Shown here piece by piece: positions 45,121-56,750 of a DNA stretch of 64,000 nt. The translations under genes were made by a program, and so were the position numbers. The stretch covers positions 8,486,001-8,550,000 of the forward strand of contig CM067528.1 of the NCBI GenBank assembly GCA_034509925.1, read 5' to 3'. The DNA is from Hirudinaria manillensis (Eukaryota; Annelida; Clitellata; Hirudinida; Hirudinidae). The first letter of the stretch is position 1, and every line of letters starts with the position of its first letter. The notes under the pieces are model-generated. The model made no database searches. It saw only the letters and a program-made list of their open reading frames with translations, and had not been told where the DNA came from.

Positions 45121-46470
45121 TGATAATCTAGCATTATCTAGTTATTAAATTAATTAATTTTTGTTTTTAACATTCCATTTTGATAATTTAGCATTAGTTG
45201 ATGTGAACGTTAATTTAATACATCCGCTAAACATAGCAACCGTTTTGTTACAAATTTAGAGATTAATTAATCTCTAAAAATGTCACCCGAATTTTAAAAA
45301 AATAAGGGTTATTAAAGGCTAAAAACTGTGATAAAGTACACTGTCCAATGGACCTCAGAAACTGAACTGAAAGAAGAGGTTTTAGCATACATGTATGTCT
45401 AGAACCTCGCATAACCACGTGTTTGCAGAACCACGTATAACGGGGTCAAAATTCCCGATCTTTGCTCCTCGAGGGATGACGAATACATGTTACCTTAGTC
45501 GGCGGCATAGTAGACTTTGCCAGTGTCCACGAAATGAAGGTCAGAAAATACGAAATGTCGGACTTTCATGCATGGATTTCGAAGAAAGTCCCCGAAAGCA
45601 CCGCCAAGCCACCAAGTATTCGGCTCGCTTCCTTGTTCGGTATTCACTAATTTCAGAGGCCTCGGAGATTTGAATTTTCAAGTTGAGGATGAATGATCTG
45701 ATTTGGATTGTACACATATGCCATCGAATTCCCCATGTTGTAGCATAATCGAAAGTTCTTGAAATGAAAATGATGGCGTCGATGATTTCGTTCGATTTTG
45801 AGACGAAGATTTTGCTGCAACTATGGGAAAGTTCAGTCTCGTGTGTTGATCTGTCAGATGCGTCTCCAGGGCTTTTGCGATCTTCTCGGACATCCATTCC
45901 GATTTGACCAACTTGGCACATTGCAGTACGCTGTGCGCTACGCAGCTCAACAGTACTAGTTTGTAGACATTCGGAGAACTACACTGGCTTTTTCCAGCGT
46001 CTTGAAAACTGTGCTGATAAACTGTTCGTCTTTGGAGACTCTTTTGAGTCAGACCTGATCAGAAGAGAAGGAGTTCGCTGAGATCGGAAAATGCCTCCGA
46101 ACGAGCAGCCATCCAGATGTCTATCTTTGCGGTTATAATACCAGATAATGAATTCAAGCCCTGAACGAGGACATTAAATTTGAGGAGGATTGTTATACGA
46201 TACTGATGTTTTTTCGATTCGATTTTTTTATTTGGAATTGAATACGAAAGGCTGAGAAAATAAATTTAAAAAAAAAATAATAAATCGAATCTCTTAAACC
46301 CTTCACAGCGTGACGAAGAAGCTGGCAATTTATTGCATCAGTTGCAATGTTTCAGTGAACGAAGACCCTTCCGACAGCAGACAAACAGCTTCGTTTATTT
46401 TCAACTTCGTCCTGTCGTTGACGACGAGAGCGGAGAATGACGGGCCTAGCAAACCAAAAATTTCAAAACA
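45121..46470. repeat. Duplicated segment, left (inverted) copy
   Basis: Blocks here reappear in inverted orientation around 51.7-53.7 kb. 45171-45460 matches the reverse complement of about 53395-53665. 45520-45590 matches about 53250-53330, both encoding QCPRNEGQKIR. 46310-46460 matches about 52390-52500. 45850-45940, read on the minus strand, encodes AKLVKSEWMSEKIAKA, as do plus-strand copies at 51800 and 52030. The order of blocks differs between the arms, so the region has been rearranged. Frames are broken; this looks like a decayed multi-copy element or gene fragment of unknown origin. Confidence 0.75.
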
Positions 46471-47638
46471 ACTTCAAAGCGCCAATACGTTAAAATTTGA
46501 ATTTTACGTTACAATGGCGGTCTTTCTTGTTTATAAAATGGCGATTCCGGCATTAACAAACCGCACAAAAATTCAAGCAAAACTTGGTTTATGCAGTAAT
46601 TTATATTTTTTTGGTGTTAGCTTGAGACTTGTAAGGCTCTCCTTGACTAGTTTTAGCTGGAACTTTGCAAACGAAGCTGAAGATACTATCTAATTAACTT
46701 CTATTAAATAAAGTTATGAGCAAGACAGATTAGATTAAACCTTAGTCGACCAAGTTTGTTAATAAGTTATAACGTTAGAATTTAAATATCTTGACTATAA
46801 TAAAGTACCTTGGTTGGTGTTCCACCCGATTTTCTGCAGCAGAACAAAACTTAGCGAAAATTATATCCTCTAATAGGATTTTTAAAACTACCATTACGAC
46901 AAATACGTTGATAAATAACAAGACAAAATCATAAATAAAGTCATAAATAAAGATAAATAACAAGACAAAATCATGTAAACCAATAAAATGCTCCCAAAAA
47001 TATTCAGTCTGAAAAGCAATACAAAAAAAAAGAACGAAAACTGTGACGCAAAATCACCAGCAACGAGATGCGACGTGAATCGTGCTCCGTCGGTTTCGGA
47101 ACATTTTTCCCGCTCGATTGACGACGATGATCCAGGAGTCTCCACGGAACCACTTTCGGTCGGAAACGTTGCTTCGAGGGTACGTAAACGGATTGCACGG
47201 CGAGCCCCGCGCTTTGCCGATCCGCCCGTTCGATCGATTCCAGTTCAATCGAGTTCAATTCCCCCGCACGAGGGCGTCGTAAAGGAGGTCTGATCAAATT
47301 TCAATGTCGCATTCGCGTCCACCATGACGAGAGAAGAGGTTCGATTAAATGATCAAAGGAATCGTAGGAATCCTACCGCTCGTCTTGTCTTGTTATTTAC
47401 CTTTATTTAGTAACTACCATTAATCGCTAAAATTAAAATTTGTTTAAGAGCAGTTCGAAGCAAAATATATCGATTAATCCTTCTCGAGCGTACCACGTCC
47501 CAGCACGATCCGCGTCGCCACGGAAACATTTTATTATTATAATTATTATTGTTATATTTATTGTTCCTATAATCATCATCATCATTATCGTTATCATTAT
47601 TAATTTTAATTCGGAGCAGATTCAACGAATTGTAAAAG
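46471..47638. other. Unannotated spacer before the retroelement
   Basis: AT-rich DNA with a GC-richer, CpG-rich patch at 47050-47300 that is open in several frames, including 46988-47293 on the plus strand. I recognise no domain and no splice-supported gene. The final 20 bases before the target duplication match the unoccupied site at about 52533. Confidence 0.45.
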
Positions 47639-47643
47639 AAGAT

Positions 47644-47827
47644 TGTTGCTGCAAACAACTCTGCTTCTCGATTAAAGTATTTATTTCCTACTCGGAAACA
47701 ATATTCTATCGAACCGTCAACGATAACTGTGCGTAAAACAAAGTTCCATCACCGAAACTTCTAGAATGTTCTACCTATTTATACTCTCTCAGCCCCTTCC
47801 CGCTTCTCAACAGGAATGGCTGTAACA
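47644..47827 (-). repeat. 3' LTR of the BEL/Pao element
   Basis: A 184-bp LTR downstream of the coding region on the minus strand, TG...CA bounded, about 98 percent identical to its partner. It follows the polypurine tract directly and abuts the AAGAT duplication on the left. Confidence 0.93.
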
Positions 47828-47839
47828 CTCCCCCCCCCC
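47828..47839 (-). other. Polypurine tract of the BEL/Pao element
   Basis: On the minus strand a run of G ending in GAG abuts the start of the 3' LTR. This is where plus-strand DNA synthesis primes in LTR elements and confirms the element's orientation. Confidence 0.8.
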
Positions 47840-47910
47840 AGCTTAATGTCTTAGTTTATACATGAGACATTAACTACACATGACAATAAATGAATGTCAA
47901 CTTTCAAATG

Positions 47911-48579
47911 TTAGATACTGTTAGCTTCTAATAAAAGAATCAGTTTGGTTATTGGACGCTCCTTGAGCTTGTGTGGACTTGAGGGAACGAAGAGAGTGAC
48001 TCTTCTTACTAATCCATCAGATCCTGGGTGTACACTAACAACCCTCGCCATGGACCAGTCATTGCGAAGCTCCGCTTCGTCTTTCATTAATACAATATCT
48101 CCTTCTTGGAAATTCCTTTTGGACTTAGTGTTCTTGCTTCTGATTTGCAAAGATGACAGATATTCCCTTTTCCACCTGAACCAGAATTCATTTGCTAGAT
48201 GTTGTACCTTTCTCCACCTTCTACGACTATAAACATCTGCTGCTACAAATTTACCTGGTGGTGCCATAACAAGCCTTGACTTCGTAGTCAACAGAGCATT
48301 CGGTGTTAGTGGAATTAAACTTTCTGGATCGTGAATCGTCTCCACTGTCAATGGTCTCGAATTGACTGTTGTTTCCACTTCAGCCATTAATGTTCGGAAT
48401 GACTCATCAACAAGCTTTCCTTGATATTGTTTACTAATGGACTTCAGTACAGCTCTGATTGTTCTTATCTGTCTTTCCCAAATGCCTCCCATGTGACTAG
48501 CAAATGGTGGGTTCTTCTTGAAAACTATATAATCAGCATTATGATTCGACAAGAACTGACTGATCATTTCAGTATCCAT
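47911..48579 (-). CDS. BEL/Pao integrase C-terminal part
   Basis: A 222-residue frame downstream of the deletion. KNPPFASHMGGIWERQIRTI is the hallmark stretch following the integrase core; VETTVNSRPLT and the tail RRRWRKVQHLANEFWFRWKREYL, GDIVLMKDE and WSMARVV form the C-terminal domain typical of BEL/Pao. The bases just upstream read ALEEM in this same frame, continuous with the integrase, and meet the RT fragment there. That places the deletion junction at about 48585-48605. The catalytic DDE residues lie mostly in the lost part. Confidence 0.85.
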   Translation of the reverse strand: MDTEMISQFLSNHNADYIVFKKNPPFASHMGGIWERQIRTIRAVLKSISKQYQGKLVDESFRTLMAEVETTVNSRPLTVETIHDPESLIPLTPNALLTTKSRLVMAPPGKFVAADVYSRRRWRKVQHLANEFWFRWKREYLSSLQIRSKNTKSKRNFQEGDIVLMKDEAELRNDWSMARVVSVHPGSDGLVRRVTLFVPSSPHKLKERPITKLILLLEANSI

Positions 48580-48584
48580 TTCTT

Positions 48585-49427
48585 CTAAAGCCTCTTTAAT
48601 CTTTCATCTATTGCACTGATGACTTCCTTGTTATTTGAATTGAATTTCCTCAAATTAAATCCTCCAGCCTTGCACATTTCTATTAAAGATAAGGCTAATT
48701 CCTTCGCTTCATCGATGGTTTCTACTGATTTTAAATTTGACAAAATGTCTTGATTCGATGGTTCATTAAAGTCAGAATTATATAACTGTAACATCATCTC
48801 ATTTAACTGAGTTTCTTTAACTTCAACTGTTGGACCACAACAAACTACTTCTTTGTGCGTTGAGGTATTGTCTAAATTTATCAATGGACCACATATGGAC
48901 CAACCGAATCCAGTGCGCATAGCATAAGGACCACCTTGTTGACTAGGTATGATTTCAATAGGTTGCAATGCCTTTGGACAATTTGAACCAAGCAACATTT
49001 CAACTTTCATGTTTGGATCTGGATTTGGAATCTTACCTGCTAATTTCTTCAAATAAGACCAGTTATCAAATATTGCAGATGTTGGTATCTCACTGTTACT
49101 AAACGGAAGAACTTCTTTGGTAAATACCTTTGGTAATTTCAATTTCACACCAGAATCTAATGAAGTTACCATTAAGCCTTTAATCACATTTGTTTTTTCT
49201 TTAACTTCTCCTGTGATTGTTCTAATGGAAATTTCTGATAAAGTGCTCTTGCATTGAAGTTGCTTGAACAATCTTTCTGTGATGAAACAAGCAGAGCTCA
49301 AATTATCTAGAGCAGCATAAACTTCTTCAACTTTGGAATGATCTGATTCATGATATACTTTGACTTTAACTACATTAATCATGGATCGCCATGCAATCAT
49401 TTGAAGATATGTTACTCTTAGCAACAA
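48585..49427 (-). CDS. BEL/Pao aspartic protease region and start of reverse transcriptase (truncated)
   Basis: A 280-residue frame displaced by one base relative to gag, so a frameshift or a mutation separates them. The block YAALDNLSSACFITERLF is the retropepsin-like region; in Pao elements the active site is often DDQS rather than DSG, and here it reads DNLS. It continues through LLGSNCPKALQPIEI and TGFGWSICGPL, then jumps to the RT-associated sequence MCKAGGFNLRKFNSN and stops at ERLKRL. The RT catalytic core is absent. This frame is non-functional as a polymerase. Confidence 0.85.
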   Translation of the reverse strand: MLLRVTYLQMIAWRSMINVVKVKVYHESDHSKVEEVYAALDNLSSACFITERLFKQLQCKSTLSEISIRTITGEVKEKTNVIKGLMVTSLDSGVKLKLPKVFTKEVLPFSNSEIPTSAIFDNWSYLKKLAGKIPNPDPNMKVEMLLGSNCPKALQPIEIIPSQQGGPYAMRTGFGWSICGPLINLDNTSTHKEVVCCGPTVEVKETQLNEMMLQLYNSDFNEPSNQDILSNLKSVETIDEAKELALSLIEMCKAGGFNLRKFNSNNKEVISAIDERLKRL

Positions 49428-50883
49428 TTGGATTCAATGAACTTTCTTTCATTTCAACTGAAGCTGATCTTTGCACATTAACATCATTGCAAAAATTATA
49501 ATTGTGCATTAATGTAGGATGTGAACCTTTACAAACTTGGCATATCTTCTTTCTTTTACAATTTTCAGCCAAATGATATCTTCCAAAACAAGCAAAACAC
49601 AATTTGTTATCTCGAAGAAACTTTTTACAATCCTTCAATAAGAGATTCTTAAATTGATTGCACTGATCCAAGTAATGATCATTACTGTTGCAATTTACAC
49701 ATTTTGACTTGACTTTATTATTGTCATCTAATGATACATTTGCAGCTCTGATTTTGAATTGAGACTTTCTACGAGACATTTCTTCTTTGGTTTCATGAAC
49801 ATCTCTAACTTTAACTGCATGTAGATGTTGAACTGAGAACATTGGATGGTTCAATATCTTGCTTTGTTGTTCAATAAATGCAACTAACTGGTTGAAATTT
49901 ATTCTCTTTCCAGTTTCTTCATAATTAATAACTTCCTTTACCCAAGCTGTTTGCATGTAAACTGGGAGTTTAATGACCATTCTTTGCATGTAGAAAGAAG
50001 TATTCAAATTAGTTAAGTACTTCGTCGACTTCATGGCATACTTGCATTTTTTCAAGAATGCTACAAATTCTTGCATACCTTTAGCATCATGCAATTTAAG
50101 GATGGGCCAATTTTCTATCTTATCAATGTAAGCCATTGCAATAATTGTTGGATCACCATACATCTTAGATAATTCTAACTTTGCAGACAAATAATTTCTT
50201 TCAGTTGGATTTGAAATGAACCCACTCACCAAATTATTAGGTTCTCCTTTTGTATATTGCCTCAAATAAAATAACTTCTTTTTTGGATCATCAGTTACAG
50301 ATTCAATGGTTGATTCAAACCATACTAACCAATCATGATATGTAAGAGGATCTCCATCAAATGAGAACATTTCAATCTTTCGTAATTGCATCAATTGCAT
50401 ACATTCACTGAGACAATCACATCTCTTTGTGTCTAATGACATGCCTTTGTTTGAATAATAATTGTCACCTTGTGTATATCTTCTGTAATCTCTAAACACA
50501 GATTCAGAATGCACTCTTGGTCGATTGATAATAGATGACAACCTAGTTACTGATGGAATGAATGAAGATGGGTCTCCCATTAGATCATCATCATCGTCAC
50601 TTTCAGCAATTTGTTCTTCATGCTCTGAAGAAGGTTCTAGTTCTGCTTGAAGCATTGATTTATCTTTTTCATAAGCAAGTTCAAGCTCCTTCATCTTGAA
50701 ATAAATTTCTTGTCTTCTAGACAATCTCTTTGCATTCTTCTCACAAACAGAATTTCTCGAATGTGAAGATGCTTTGCTTCTTCTTGAAGCATTAGAAACT
50801 TGTGATGCACTTTCTAGTCTATCATCAGTTTCTATAGCAGCAACAATTGCTTCTCCTTTGTGGGCTAAAATTTCGTTTTCCAT
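49375..50883 (-). CDS. BEL/Pao Gag polyprotein
   Basis: A 502-residue open frame starts about 150 bases inside the 5' LTR. An N-terminal basic/coiled region (RLSRRQEIYFKMKELELAYE) is followed by the Pao-type gag core containing MFSFDGDPLTYHDWLVWFES and LFYLRQYTKGEP. Near the C-terminus are three zinc knuckles: CCHC at 395-408 (CVNCNSNDHYLDQC), CCHC at 429-442 (CFACFGRYHLAENC) and a CCHH variant at 448-460. Gag would form the particle and bind the RNA. The frame is intact over its whole length, unlike pol. It overlaps the next frame by 53 bases in a different reading frame. Confidence 0.9.
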   Translation of the reverse strand: MENEILAHKGEAIVAAIETDDRLESASQVSNASRRSKASSHSRNSVCEKNAKRLSRRQEIYFKMKELELAYEKDKSMLQAELEPSSEHEEQIAESDDDDDLMGDPSSFIPSVTRLSSIINRPRVHSESVFRDYRRYTQGDNYYSNKGMSLDTKRCDCLSECMQLMQLRKIEMFSFDGDPLTYHDWLVWFESTIESVTDDPKKKLFYLRQYTKGEPNNLVSGFISNPTERNYLSAKLELSKMYGDPTIIAMAYIDKIENWPILKLHDAKGMQEFVAFLKKCKYAMKSTKYLTNLNTSFYMQRMVIKLPVYMQTAWVKEVINYEETGKRINFNQLVAFIEQQSKILNHPMFSVQHLHAVKVRDVHETKEEMSRRKSQFKIRAANVSLDDNNKVKSKCVNCNSNDHYLDQCNQFKNLLLKDCKKFLRDNKLCFACFGRYHLAENCKRKKICQVCKGSHPTLMHNYNFCNDVNVQRSASVEMKESSLNPIVAKSNISSNDCMAIHD

Positions 50884-51035
50884 ACTGCACAGTTAACATC
50901 AACTGGACTCAGAATCTCCAAATTGTTTCTTGCAACTCACAATAACCACAACACAGTGATTCGATAACGTATTCTCTACAGACGCGAACTTTCGTATTTT
51001 ACTGCAGAATACGCGAACTTTGTTTTACTTGAATA

Positions 51036-51219
51036 TGTTGCCGCAAACAACTCTGATTCTCGATTAAAGTATTTATTTCCTACTCGGAAACAATATTCTA
51101 TCGAACCGTCAACGATAACTGTGCGTAAAACAAAGTTCCATCACCTAAACTTATAGAATGTTCTACCTATTTATACTCTCTCAGCCCCTTCCCGCTTCTC
51201 AACAGGAATGGCTGTAACA
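51036..51219 (-). repeat. 5' LTR of the BEL/Pao element
   Basis: A 184-bp LTR upstream of gag on the minus strand. It differs from the other LTR at four single bases. The sequence just inside it (minus strand from 51035) does not begin with the usual TGG of a tRNA primer site, so the primer could not be assigned. Confidence 0.93.
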
Positions 51220-52550
51220 AAGATAATTACGAAATTTCAAGGATAAACAACTTATTTAATCGAATTAAGTCATAATTGAGTTTGTTAATTGAATTGATTC
51301 AACAATTAATGTACATTTTGCTTTATTTTAACTTTATTTATTTTTTCGTTAAACCTTTTGATTTTCAAAATGGATGGTTTATAAAATGTTTTAAGCAATT
51401 ATTTCCTTTTGCTTTAATTTAAAAATTCTAATTAAAAATTTAAAAATTTAATTAACATTCAGAATCTTTTGCGTCAACCACCTTTATCGCGGCGCAAGCT
51501 TTATATCAATACTCAGTCAGCTAATCGAAATTAACTGCCCGAGCTTCTAGAGGTAAATAAAATTTTTGATTATTAAATTCACCGCCCTATATGACGATAA
51601 GGTTATGATGCCATCTTGGTTACATGCTCCAATTAACGAAATGAAAATACTTTCGGACTGCGGTTGAAACGAGAGCTTTGACGTGAGACTAACCATTTGA
51701 AGTGACCTACATTCTCGAGCAGATGTGGGAAAGCCAATGTAGTTCTCTTAATTCCTACAAACTAGTGCTGTTGAGCCGCGTAACGCACAGCGTCCTGCAA
51801 TGTGCCAAGTTGGTCAAATCGGAATGGATGTCCGAGAAGATCGCAAAAGCCATGGAGTCGCATCTGACAGATCAACACAAGGGACTGAACTTTCCAAGAG
51901 CTGTGGCTAAATCTTCGTCTCAAAATCAAACCAAGTCATCGATGCCACAATTCATTATGACGAGTCAGTGACAGAAGGACCTGATTCTTTGTTGAGCTCT
52001 TTGCAGAGGAAGAAGATGGGGAACTAACTGCCAAGTTGGTCAAATCGGAATGGATGTCCGATAAGATCGCAAAAGCCATGGAGACGCATCTGACTGATCA
52101 ACACAAGAGCTGTGGCAAAATCTTCGTTTCAAAATCGATCGAAGTCATCGATGCCACAATTCATTATCACGAGTCAGTGACAGAAGAAACTGAATCTTTG
52201 TTGAGCTCTTTGCAGCGGAAGAAGATGAACTAAGTGGCATCCTGGATCGATTCTGTGGTCCAAGCGGTGGGGGAGGGTAAGATTCGAATCCGGATGTGGT
52301 TACTGACAAAATCTTCGTGAACAGCCAGAGACTCTCTGCATTCAAGGAATACCTGGTGAAGCGAGGCTCTAAAACCGAATTTTCCGTCGTCGTCAACGAC
52401 AGGACGAATTTGAAAATAAACGAAACTGAATGTCTGAAGGGTCTTCGTTTACTGAAACATTGCAACTGATGCAATAAATTGTCAGCTTCTTCGTCACGCT
52501 GTGATCCGGTCAGGATGGTTGTTTCTATTAATTCAACGAATTGTAAAAGA
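51220..52550. repeat. Duplicated segments and fragmentary frames right of the retroelement
   Basis: 51220-51420 repeats about 52551-52750 as a direct copy (AATTACGAAATTTCAAG through AATTAATGTACATTTTG). A coding-like module reading CAKLVKSEWMSEKIAKAM occurs at 51795-51900 and again, in tandem, at 52028-52110; an inverted third copy lies at 45850-45940. After the second copy the frame runs SCGKIFVSKSIEVIDATI and ends ESLLSSLQRKKMN. A fourth stretch (52309-52475) reads IFVNSQRLSAFKEYLVKRG to a stop. I do not recognise the parent gene; these look like pseudogene fragments. Confidence 0.65.
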
Positions 52551-52560
52551 AGATAATTAC
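52533..52560. other. Unoccupied paralogue of the retroelement target site
   Basis: TTCAACGAATTGTAAAAGAAG runs directly into ATAATTACGAAATTTCAAG here with a single AAGAT. At 47621-47643 and 51220-51240 the same sequence is split by the element and AAGAT is doubled. This is a pre-insertion copy preserved by local duplication. Confidence 0.88.
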
Positions 52561-53690
52561 GAAATTTCAAGAATAAACAACTTATTTAATCAAATTAAGT
52601 CATAATTGAGTTTACTAATAGAATTGATTCAACAATTAATGTACATTTTGGTTTATTTTAACTTTATTTTTTTCCTTATACCTACAGACTTTTGATTTTC
52701 AAAATGGGTTGTTTATAAAAAGTTTTAAGCAATTGTTTCTTTTTTTTAGGAATGTGGCAATATGCATTAAATGGCAGTAATAGTAACGTATTCGTAATGT
52801 TGAATTCTTTGTTGATATATATTTGATTTTTTTCAGTCTTTCATATTGAATTCCGAATCAAAATATGGAATCGAAATCGAAAATTCAAACAGTAGCATTT
52901 AACAGTCCTCTTCAAATTTAATTTACTCTTTCTGGGCTTCATTTCACCCTCGGACAGAAAAAGAAATTGAATTTTGGGTCAATATAGCGAACCGTGACGA
53001 CAATGATCGAAGTGTTAATTTCGTTCAATTGTTGCCTTCAGTTTGATTCTTGCCTTCCTTCTGCGACATCTGTGGGCTCTCCAAATCCTGTTAGTATCTT
53101 GGAGAACTCGAATCACAGCGCCCATCAAACATTCCCGAGACAAGCCTATTCCCTGCAAAAACTATGATTTCGTTACCATCACCCCCTCCCATTGATGCAG
53201 GAAGTGACACTTCCCGACAGCACCACCAAACCAAGAGGGAATTTCTTCGAAATCCATGCAAGTATGTCCGGCATGTCGTATTTTCTGACCTTCATTTCGT
53301 GGACACTGCCAAAGTCTATGTCGGGTGACGTCGCAGAACATGTATATTCGACATCCCTTCAGGCGCAAAGAGCGGGAATTTTGACCCCGTTATACGTTGG
53401 AATGCGAGGTTCTACACATATGCTAAAACCTCTTCTTTCAGTTCAGTTTCTAAGGTCCATTGGACAGTATACTGTACGTTATCACAGTACTCTAGCCTTT
53501 AATAAACCTTATTTTTTTTAAAATTCGGGTGACATATAAATTTAGAGACTAATTAATCCTTAAAAATATAACAAAACGGTTATGTTTAGCGGATGTATTA
53601 AAAGGTAAATTAACATCAGTTCACATCAACTAATGCTACATTATCAAAATGGAATGTTTAAAACAAAAATTAATTAATTTAATTTAATAA
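52561..53690. repeat. Duplicated segment, right copy
   Basis: This is the partner of the 45121-46470 region in opposite orientation. The clearest block is 53395-53665, the reverse complement of 45171-45460 with scattered substitutions and small gaps. 53230-53340 mirrors 45510-45600. A TA-rich stretch between 52550 and 52900 repeats material from 51220-51420. It ends about 140 bases before the akirin-like ATG. Confidence 0.75.
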
Positions 53691-54405: not shown

Positions 54406-55932
54406 AGGAAATACCGGCAGCGTGGTGCGATGGTGAACGGGTGGAAAAAATTTTGGTTATATAACGTAAAGGGTGGGCCCAGGCACCAGCAAAATATATT
54501 AGAACTTATATTACATAACCATAAAACAAGTATAAAAGTGCTCTGCTCCAGAAAGAACATTCCATTATTAGATATTGAAAAACGAAATAAAATATATGAA
54601 GGAGTACAATTTTTGAAACCTAAGTTACGTAATTTAATCTTGCATTTTAGTGGATTACGAAACTTAATGCTAATTTCAAGAGATTAGGATTAAGTAGATG
54701 CTGGTACAGCATTATTCGGCGTCATTTATTAACATTTATTGTCATGTGTTGCTATTTGGTGTAATTTGGTATCGTGTGACATCATTAGGTAAGTTTTTGT
54801 GTGAACGAAGAGGAGATAAGGCGATGGTAGAGAGGGAGAGATAAAGTGAGGGGGAAAGAGCGGAGTGTTAGACGTACTTTGTCGGTTTTGTTATATGTCT
54901 CGGGAATTCTCATAACGATGATATCTAACAAATCATTACCGTCATCATCGTCCACAACACCACAACAAAACGATTAGCTCCGAATATCATCATGATTTTA
55001 AAAACAAGATTAAATAATATCATTTATGAACAAATGCATCATTTGAACGACAGGAACGGAGATAGCAATAAATTTTACAAGTAGGACGACACCACCACTA
55101 CTACTACTAATAATAATATTAATAATAATAATTATAAACCTTCAATAGCGCAATAATATCATTAATAATAAACAATAATGGCACAATAACAACAACAGTG
55201 TTGTTAACGGCAGCGATAAACAATGCGTTTCAAAATCAGTCGCTAGATGACAGGTGTGATTCAACTTGATAGATGTGACACTCCCTCACAACACAAGATT
55301 CGACAGCAAAATACGAAACAATAATCAATCAATCAATCAGAAACAACAATCAATCAATCAATCAGAAACAGCAATCAATCAATCAATCAGAAACAACAAT
55401 CAATCAATCAATCAGAAACAGCAATCAATCAATCAAAGTCAATCGACAACCCAACAACCTCGAACCACTGCTCCACAAAAGTCCCTCGCAGGGGGAGGTG
55501 AACGGGTCGAAGTCTACGGGAAATTTATGCGACATTCCGCAGATGGCAGGACGCACTATTCAAACAAAAAAAGGACTGGACAAAAGGTGGAAGAGATGCA
55601 AAGTTCGAGATAACCCAATAATAATAATAATAATAAATAATAATAATTAATAATAATAATTAATAATGAAATCAATGATAATAATAATAAGTAAGGTTAA
55701 TAGCAAACATTGCACTTCATCAAGACCCAAAAAAATAATAATGAAACCTTAACCTCCAGGATGACAAACGACCAACGATTGATTTTGAAAATGAATTTTA
55801 AAAACAAATTTTAAACCAAAAGAACGAACACGATCGAGATTAGAATTAACATCCCATAAGAGATGGAAATTAAAAATAATAAAAGTAAAAAATAATTTAA
55901 AGAAAAATAATGATAACAACAATAATAATACA

Positions 55933-55964
<32 letters not shown>

Positions 55965-56750
55965 TGATGATGATAATGATAATAATAATAATAATAATAA
56001 ATTAATGGATGAATACCAATGATTTTCAACTTTTAAGAATTGAAGAATTATTTGTGCAAATAAATATTCAACAAACAAAACTTGATTTCCATGCAAAAAC
56101 CACTGCATGGATTTGGATGATGACAATGGTGATGATGATGATGACAATGGTGGTGATGATGATGATGATGAGTACATGTCAAGACTGTATTAGCCAAGGT
56201 AGGAAAAATGAAAAATAAAGATTTCTGACTGCTGTTCACGACTCGGACCCGTATTTACAACGATTTATAAACAAAATATGAGTAATAAAAATAATATGAC
56301 AACGATCACTATCATCACCAACATTATCGTCATCATCACCAAGTGACACTGAATGTTGATAATGATCTTGTAATACTGATGGGACTGAGTGTCAGTTTAA
56401 AATCAGATGTGAAGACCATGTTAATTGCAATGAAAATGAACAACAAACAATTCATAATAATTTATAGACAATAATTTATTATAATAATAATAATCATAAC
56501 AATAATATTAATTATTAGTATAATATTACTATACTATAATGTATTATTATATAACTATTATTATTATTAATATTATTATTATTATTACAATAGTTATTAT
56601 TATTATTATTATTACTATTATTATTATTATAATGACGTGAAGGGTGGTGTTGACATCAGAGGCTGGGAACGCTAAACTTGAACGATTGTTTGCATCATAA
56701 TCATTCCCTCCCTCATCGACGTCCTCGTCGTCATCCTCATCACAACAGCT

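Follow-up and report, generated by a model that had tools for sequence, protein, structure and literature searches.

A defective BEL/Pao-derived insertion and its empty paralogous site in Hirudinaria manillensis

Elements of the BEL/Pao group have a characteristic domain order, with integrase followed by DUF5641, a reverse transcriptase (RT) carrying a YVDD-type motif, and target duplications of 4-6 bp. Several types of non-autonomous LTR element are also recognised, including TRIM, LARD and TR-GAG. The loss of an LTR element leaves a solo LTR behind, and related empty sites are used to validate insertions of transposable elements. The BEL/Pao kind is well known, since it has been surveyed across 62 genomes (PMC3118150).

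The locus described here lies in a window of 64,000 nucleotides from Hirudinaria manillensis (assembly GCA_034509925.1, contig CM067528.1, positions 8,486,001 to 8,550,000; coordinates below are those of the window unless a contig is named). The element resembles BEL/Pao in its DUF1759 gag, its DUF5641 integrase tail, its TG...CA LTRs and its 5-bp duplication, and a 98%-identical copy on contig C3 contains the Pao peptidase PF05380; it differs in lacking the RT core, in having lost a further ~1.74 kb, and in a total length of 3576 bp. Like TRIM, LARD and TR-GAG elements, it has LTRs and a gag frame without the machinery to copy itself, but it retains pol remnants and was found in few copies, with at least 14 LTR matches in the genome, fragments included (all genome-wide counts given here are lower bounds). 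As with related empty sites in general, a paralogous element-free copy yields the boundaries and the duplication; the difference is that such a copy is present once in the window itself and seven times on another contig, C1. As an insertion of a defective element the case is ordinary, but its empty paralogues make it unusually clear.

Boundaries and coding content of the element

The element is oriented on the minus strand, and the element proper occupies positions 47644-51219 (Table 1). Alignment of its two LTRs is free of gaps and gives four substitutions over 184 bp, the count and length that an earlier, sequence-only reading of the window had reported; the substitutions are at alignment positions 7, 21, 111 and 118. 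The termini read TGTTGC...GTAACA, and the perfect AAGAT duplication of that reading is indeed found at both ends, so that the combination of TG...CA LTRs with a short target duplication is that of BEL/Pao. The range that it had assigned to the insertion, 47639-52560, does contain the element, but it also takes in a gene relic in decay and the first part of the empty copy.

Table 1. Positions of the element, its flanks, the empty site and the neighbouring gene relics
Feature	Position	Strand	Basis or comparison
Second, inverted CPSF100-like relic, left of insertion	45619-46440	-	tblastn, blastn
Left flank, start of spacer R, ends in AAGAT (47639-47643)	47598-47643	+	C1 unit positions 2283-2328, 89%
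3' LTR	47644-47827	-	184 bp, 98% identical to 51036-51219
Polypurine tract adjoining 3' LTR (C run on + strand)	47828-47839	-	sequence
C-terminal integrase region with DUF5641	47911-48603	-	PF18701, E 4.1e-27
Presumed protease-linker / RT-tail frame, without RT core	48585-49433	-	97% identical to C3 copy
Junction of ~1.74 kb deletion relative to C3:6961004-6966315	48595-48599	-	arms overlap by 5 bp
Gag-like open frame, 505 aa, DUF1759	49375-50892	-	PF03564, E 1.5e-9
5' LTR	51036-51219	-	184 bp
Right flank: AAGAT (51220-51224) and remainder of spacer R	51220-51412	+	flank comparison
Decayed CPSF100-like relic, internal deletions and internal duplication	51444-52501	+	tblastn, blastn of C1 unit
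Spacer R', local empty site; target AAGAT 52550-52554	52509-52744	+	alignment, string search

The gag-like frame scores 38.4 bits against PF03564, where the cut-off is 25.4, in agreement with a gag of the DUF1759 type found in BEL/Pao. The end of gag and the part that follows it form a single frame in the C3 copy and two frames in the window copy. The second of these frames presumably holds a protease-linker and an RT tail, and Pfam gave no protease match in it at E values up to 1 or 10. None of the three window frames matched the Pao peptidase PF05380 or, since that part of the element falls in or beside the deletion, a Pfam integrase core family. A 300-bp stretch across position 48600 is unbroken at the window alone among the matches listed (one of six), and its halves lie ~1.74 kb apart in the C3 copy; the idea that the deletion is a shared feature of a subfamily was rejected on this ground. 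No [YFV][VMI]DD motif came up when all six frames were scanned in the internal region of the window element and in the C3 pieces.

Because both the peptidase and the RT motif are missing, the window element would be classed, judging by its sequence, as a defective BEL/Pao derivative rather than as a full member. The identification as BEL/Pao made in the sequence-only reading holds as far as DUF1759, DUF5641, the LTRs and the 5-bp duplication go, but has to be qualified for a badly truncated element with no PF05380 match and no RT core.

CPSF100-like gene units and the empty site

The sequences on either side of the insertion belong to a gene unit. Spacer R, which is interrupted by the element, and spacer R', which is not, flank the plus-strand CPSF100-like relic; both are spacers of a gene array, and a reading of the two as LTRs of a second element was rejected. 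A genome search with positions 52531-52744 returned at least 10 matches, five of them on contig C1 at a spacing of 2547 bp, and self-comparison of this array resolved it into head-to-tail units that are 99.8-99.9% identical. In the region C1:9371500-9388500 these units, each 2547 bp long, carry five CPSF100-like frames of 721 codons that are intact, intronless and identical to each other; the first of the frames, the sole one scanned with Pfam, matches Lactamase_B_6, Beta-Casp and CPSF100_C. A sixth frame is inverted, at C1:9122500-9130500, and differs from the array frames by a dS of 0.034 and a dN of 0.017. The array reflects either a recent amplification of the gene or an effect of the assembly. 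When the CPSF100-like protein was compared with C9:8600156-8605404, it matched in 10 separate tblastn pieces at 28-71% identity, and this locus is taken, from that pattern, as an intron-bearing CPSF100 gene. On that reading the C1 genes are intronless, and they are probably retrocopies.

The array on C1 is intact, whereas the window holds CPSF100-like copies as relics only; in the plus-strand relic, Pfam recognises Beta-Casp and CPSF100_C, both under the cut-off. Relics of such units extend over 45144-46440 and 51444-53683 and are inverted relative to each other across the insertion. Within this extent, 53237-53683 matches 45592-45144 at 81%, yet nothing in the C1 unit matches that part. The gene relic also contains an internal direct duplication (51803-52227), with copies 209 and 226 bp apart, and a low-complexity stretch at ~55600-56000 is matched, among the hits listed, by many short segments in other parts of the window.

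The paralogous empty copy, placed by the sequence-only reading at about 52533-52560, was borne out by alignment, with the flanks meeting without the element from 52531. Positions 47620-47643 are identical to 52531-52554 over 24 bp, and the right flank (51220-51343) matches 52550-52673 at 94% identity; in the empty copy the first match runs straight into the second, with the target AAGAT present once. The boundaries are thus as precise as had been claimed: the alignment neither stops short of the LTRs nor leaves AAGAT unshared, the two outcomes that would have counted against the claim. The left match is as short as 24 bp without gaps because the empty copy lacks ~17 bp just upstream of 52531, as a gapped alignment with the C1 copies indicates. 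In the occupied copy, similarity to the C1 unit starts at 47598, with simple-repeat sequence further to the left, and on the other side 51213-51412 matches this unit at 84% identity.

A 29-bp string spanning the empty site, searched with up to two mismatches allowed, has at least eight matches in the 148-Mb genome, all of them exact, seven on contig C1 and one in the window; the reversed string, used as a control, has none in the same genome. A chance similarity of 24 bp between the flanks was rejected on these counts. In the alignment of copies, the site is kept in seven of the eight unoccupied rows, the eighth being a copy at the array edge from which the stretch is missing. Another C1 copy is outside the alignment, though it is counted among the seven string matches on C1.

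Order of events and competing histories

Between spacers R and R' there are 29 differences in 227 sites (0.128), against four in 184 between the LTRs (Fisher p = 7.2e-5), a comparison of sequences whose evolutionary rates need not be equal. R and R' had separated before the element inserted, because the spacers have diverged more than the LTRs, and this order follows by logic as well, as one copy is still empty. This agrees with the order proposed earlier, duplication before insertion. The description of that event as a local duplication fits the tandem layout, in which R' is the spacer of a CPSF100-like unit, and what was duplicated is most plausibly a tandem gene unit, whose site is also empty seven times on C1; the locality of the event is unproven, as the spacer tree is unrooted and does no more than separate the C1 sequences from the two window spacers.

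A spacer tree of R, R' and six C1 sequences, unrooted and without an outgroup, separates the C1 sequences from the two window spacers with a support of 1.000. Alignment columns group R and R' against C1 in 13 cases, R and C1 against R' in 16, and R' and C1 against R in eight. R differs from one C1 copy at 28 of 232 sites (0.121), and is thus as close to it as to R'. For this reason, and because the tree is unrooted, R and R' need not be each other's closest relatives. The distance between R and R' could also be distorted by gene conversion among spacers; the five coding frames of the C1 array are identical.

The LTR divergence corresponds to K = 0.0221. Compared by eye with the C3 copy, the four differences fall two to each LTR, as expected if the changes arose after insertion. 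In LTRs this short, 4 of 184 is a weak clock, with a Poisson 95% range of about 1 to 10 changes. At insect substitution rates of 2.8e-9 to 5.8e-9 per site per year the insertion would be ~1.9-3.9 million years old (Poisson range 0.5-10), though the rate of the host itself may differ; at a rate of 1.1e-8, the age would be 1.0 million years (0.3-2.6). The term young, applied to the insertion in the first reading, depends on only four substitutions.

A history that accounts for the locus would begin with a CPSF100-like intronless unit, in the order spacer, gene, spacer. Later, an element derived from BEL/Pao and already lacking RT would have been reverse-transcribed by enzymes presumably supplied in trans. 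It integrated in minus orientation at the AAGAT of the left spacer, where a staggered cut generated the 5-bp duplication, and the right spacer remained empty. The sequence itself demonstrates the site, the duplication, the orientation and the order in this history, and taken as a whole, this sequence of events is very probable.

Should the empty copy instead be younger than the insertion, with a paralogue or allele that lacks the element as its source through gene conversion or duplication, the order would be reversed. There are possible donors, namely the seven element-free copies on C1, and the units of the C1 array are nearly identical to each other. Nonetheless, the distance of R' is 0.162-0.214 to the six C1 sequences and 0.128 to R, the latter about sixfold that between the LTRs, and a recent donor would be closer, which makes such an origin improbable. 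Since the evidence comes from one assembly, the insertion or the empty copy could in principle be a collapsed or duplicated haplotype, but 29 differences in 227 sites are many for alleles and the sequences upstream of R and R' differ, so that an artefact of this kind is still less probable. That the element once sat in R' as well and was then excised is a formal alternative with nil support in this analysis, and hardly credible given that R' carries neither an LTR remnant nor a doubled AAGAT, like the seven C1 copies, that apparent solo LTRs with duplications do exist for the family of the window element, and that precise excision of LTR elements is not known.

Relatives of the element and the missing reverse transcriptase

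The preferred history, in which an RT-less element entered the left spacer, concerns an element of which few copies were found in the genome. The copy at C3:6961004-6966315 is ~98% identical where aligned, has the duplication ATAGA and LTRs that differ by two substitutions and one indel, and contains Peptidase_A17 (PF05380). A search of the 148-Mb genome for this peptidase family gave two matches as a lower bound, C3:6963743 and C4:8591390, and BEL/Pao is apparently rare in this host. Apparent solo LTRs are found at C7:4448281, with the duplication GCTAT, and at C6:6432456, with ATCCC. At three further sites (C12:5468700, C1:9203575 and C1:8111815), a variant LTR shares only positions 30-184 with the window LTR, and all three variants continue into a different sequence that they have in common.

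The relative on C4 carries YVDD. In tblastn, its RT piece fails to match the window element and reaches a best E value of 0.26 in the C3 pieces; its tail piece matches the window element at 3e-31 and the C3 pieces at 3e-31 and 3e-30. The same RT piece has at least five matches in the genome: C4 itself, C9:2080151 at 75%, with a 78% LTR match less than 1 kb away, two stop-containing pieces on C5, and a 19-residue piece on C7. Among the matches listed, the RT-bearing relatives are thus few or decayed copies only. Pfam found no RT even in the C4 fragment that has YVDD, and for this reason the absence of RT is argued from the motif scan and from tblastn.

The window element has LTRs and a target duplication and lacks an RT of its own, the combination that characterises a non-autonomous element. 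Since the window and C3 copies are without the RT core seen in the relatives on C4 and C9, the window element is non-autonomous and probably moved in trans. Moreover, two insertions with different duplications (AAGAT and ATAGA) share the loss of RT, which suggests that at least one of them probably moved without its own RT. That the window element is part of a BEL/Pao sublineage without RT, which spread by means of RT borrowed in trans, is a reading that we favour by a little.

These findings leave the knowledge of LTR retrotransposons unchanged. What the locus offers is a self-validating insertion, for which boundaries, duplication and order of events can all be derived from one assembly. For this genome, it is also a pointer to a possible RT-less BEL/Pao lineage, and to a family of intronless CPSF100-like genes in a tandem array.
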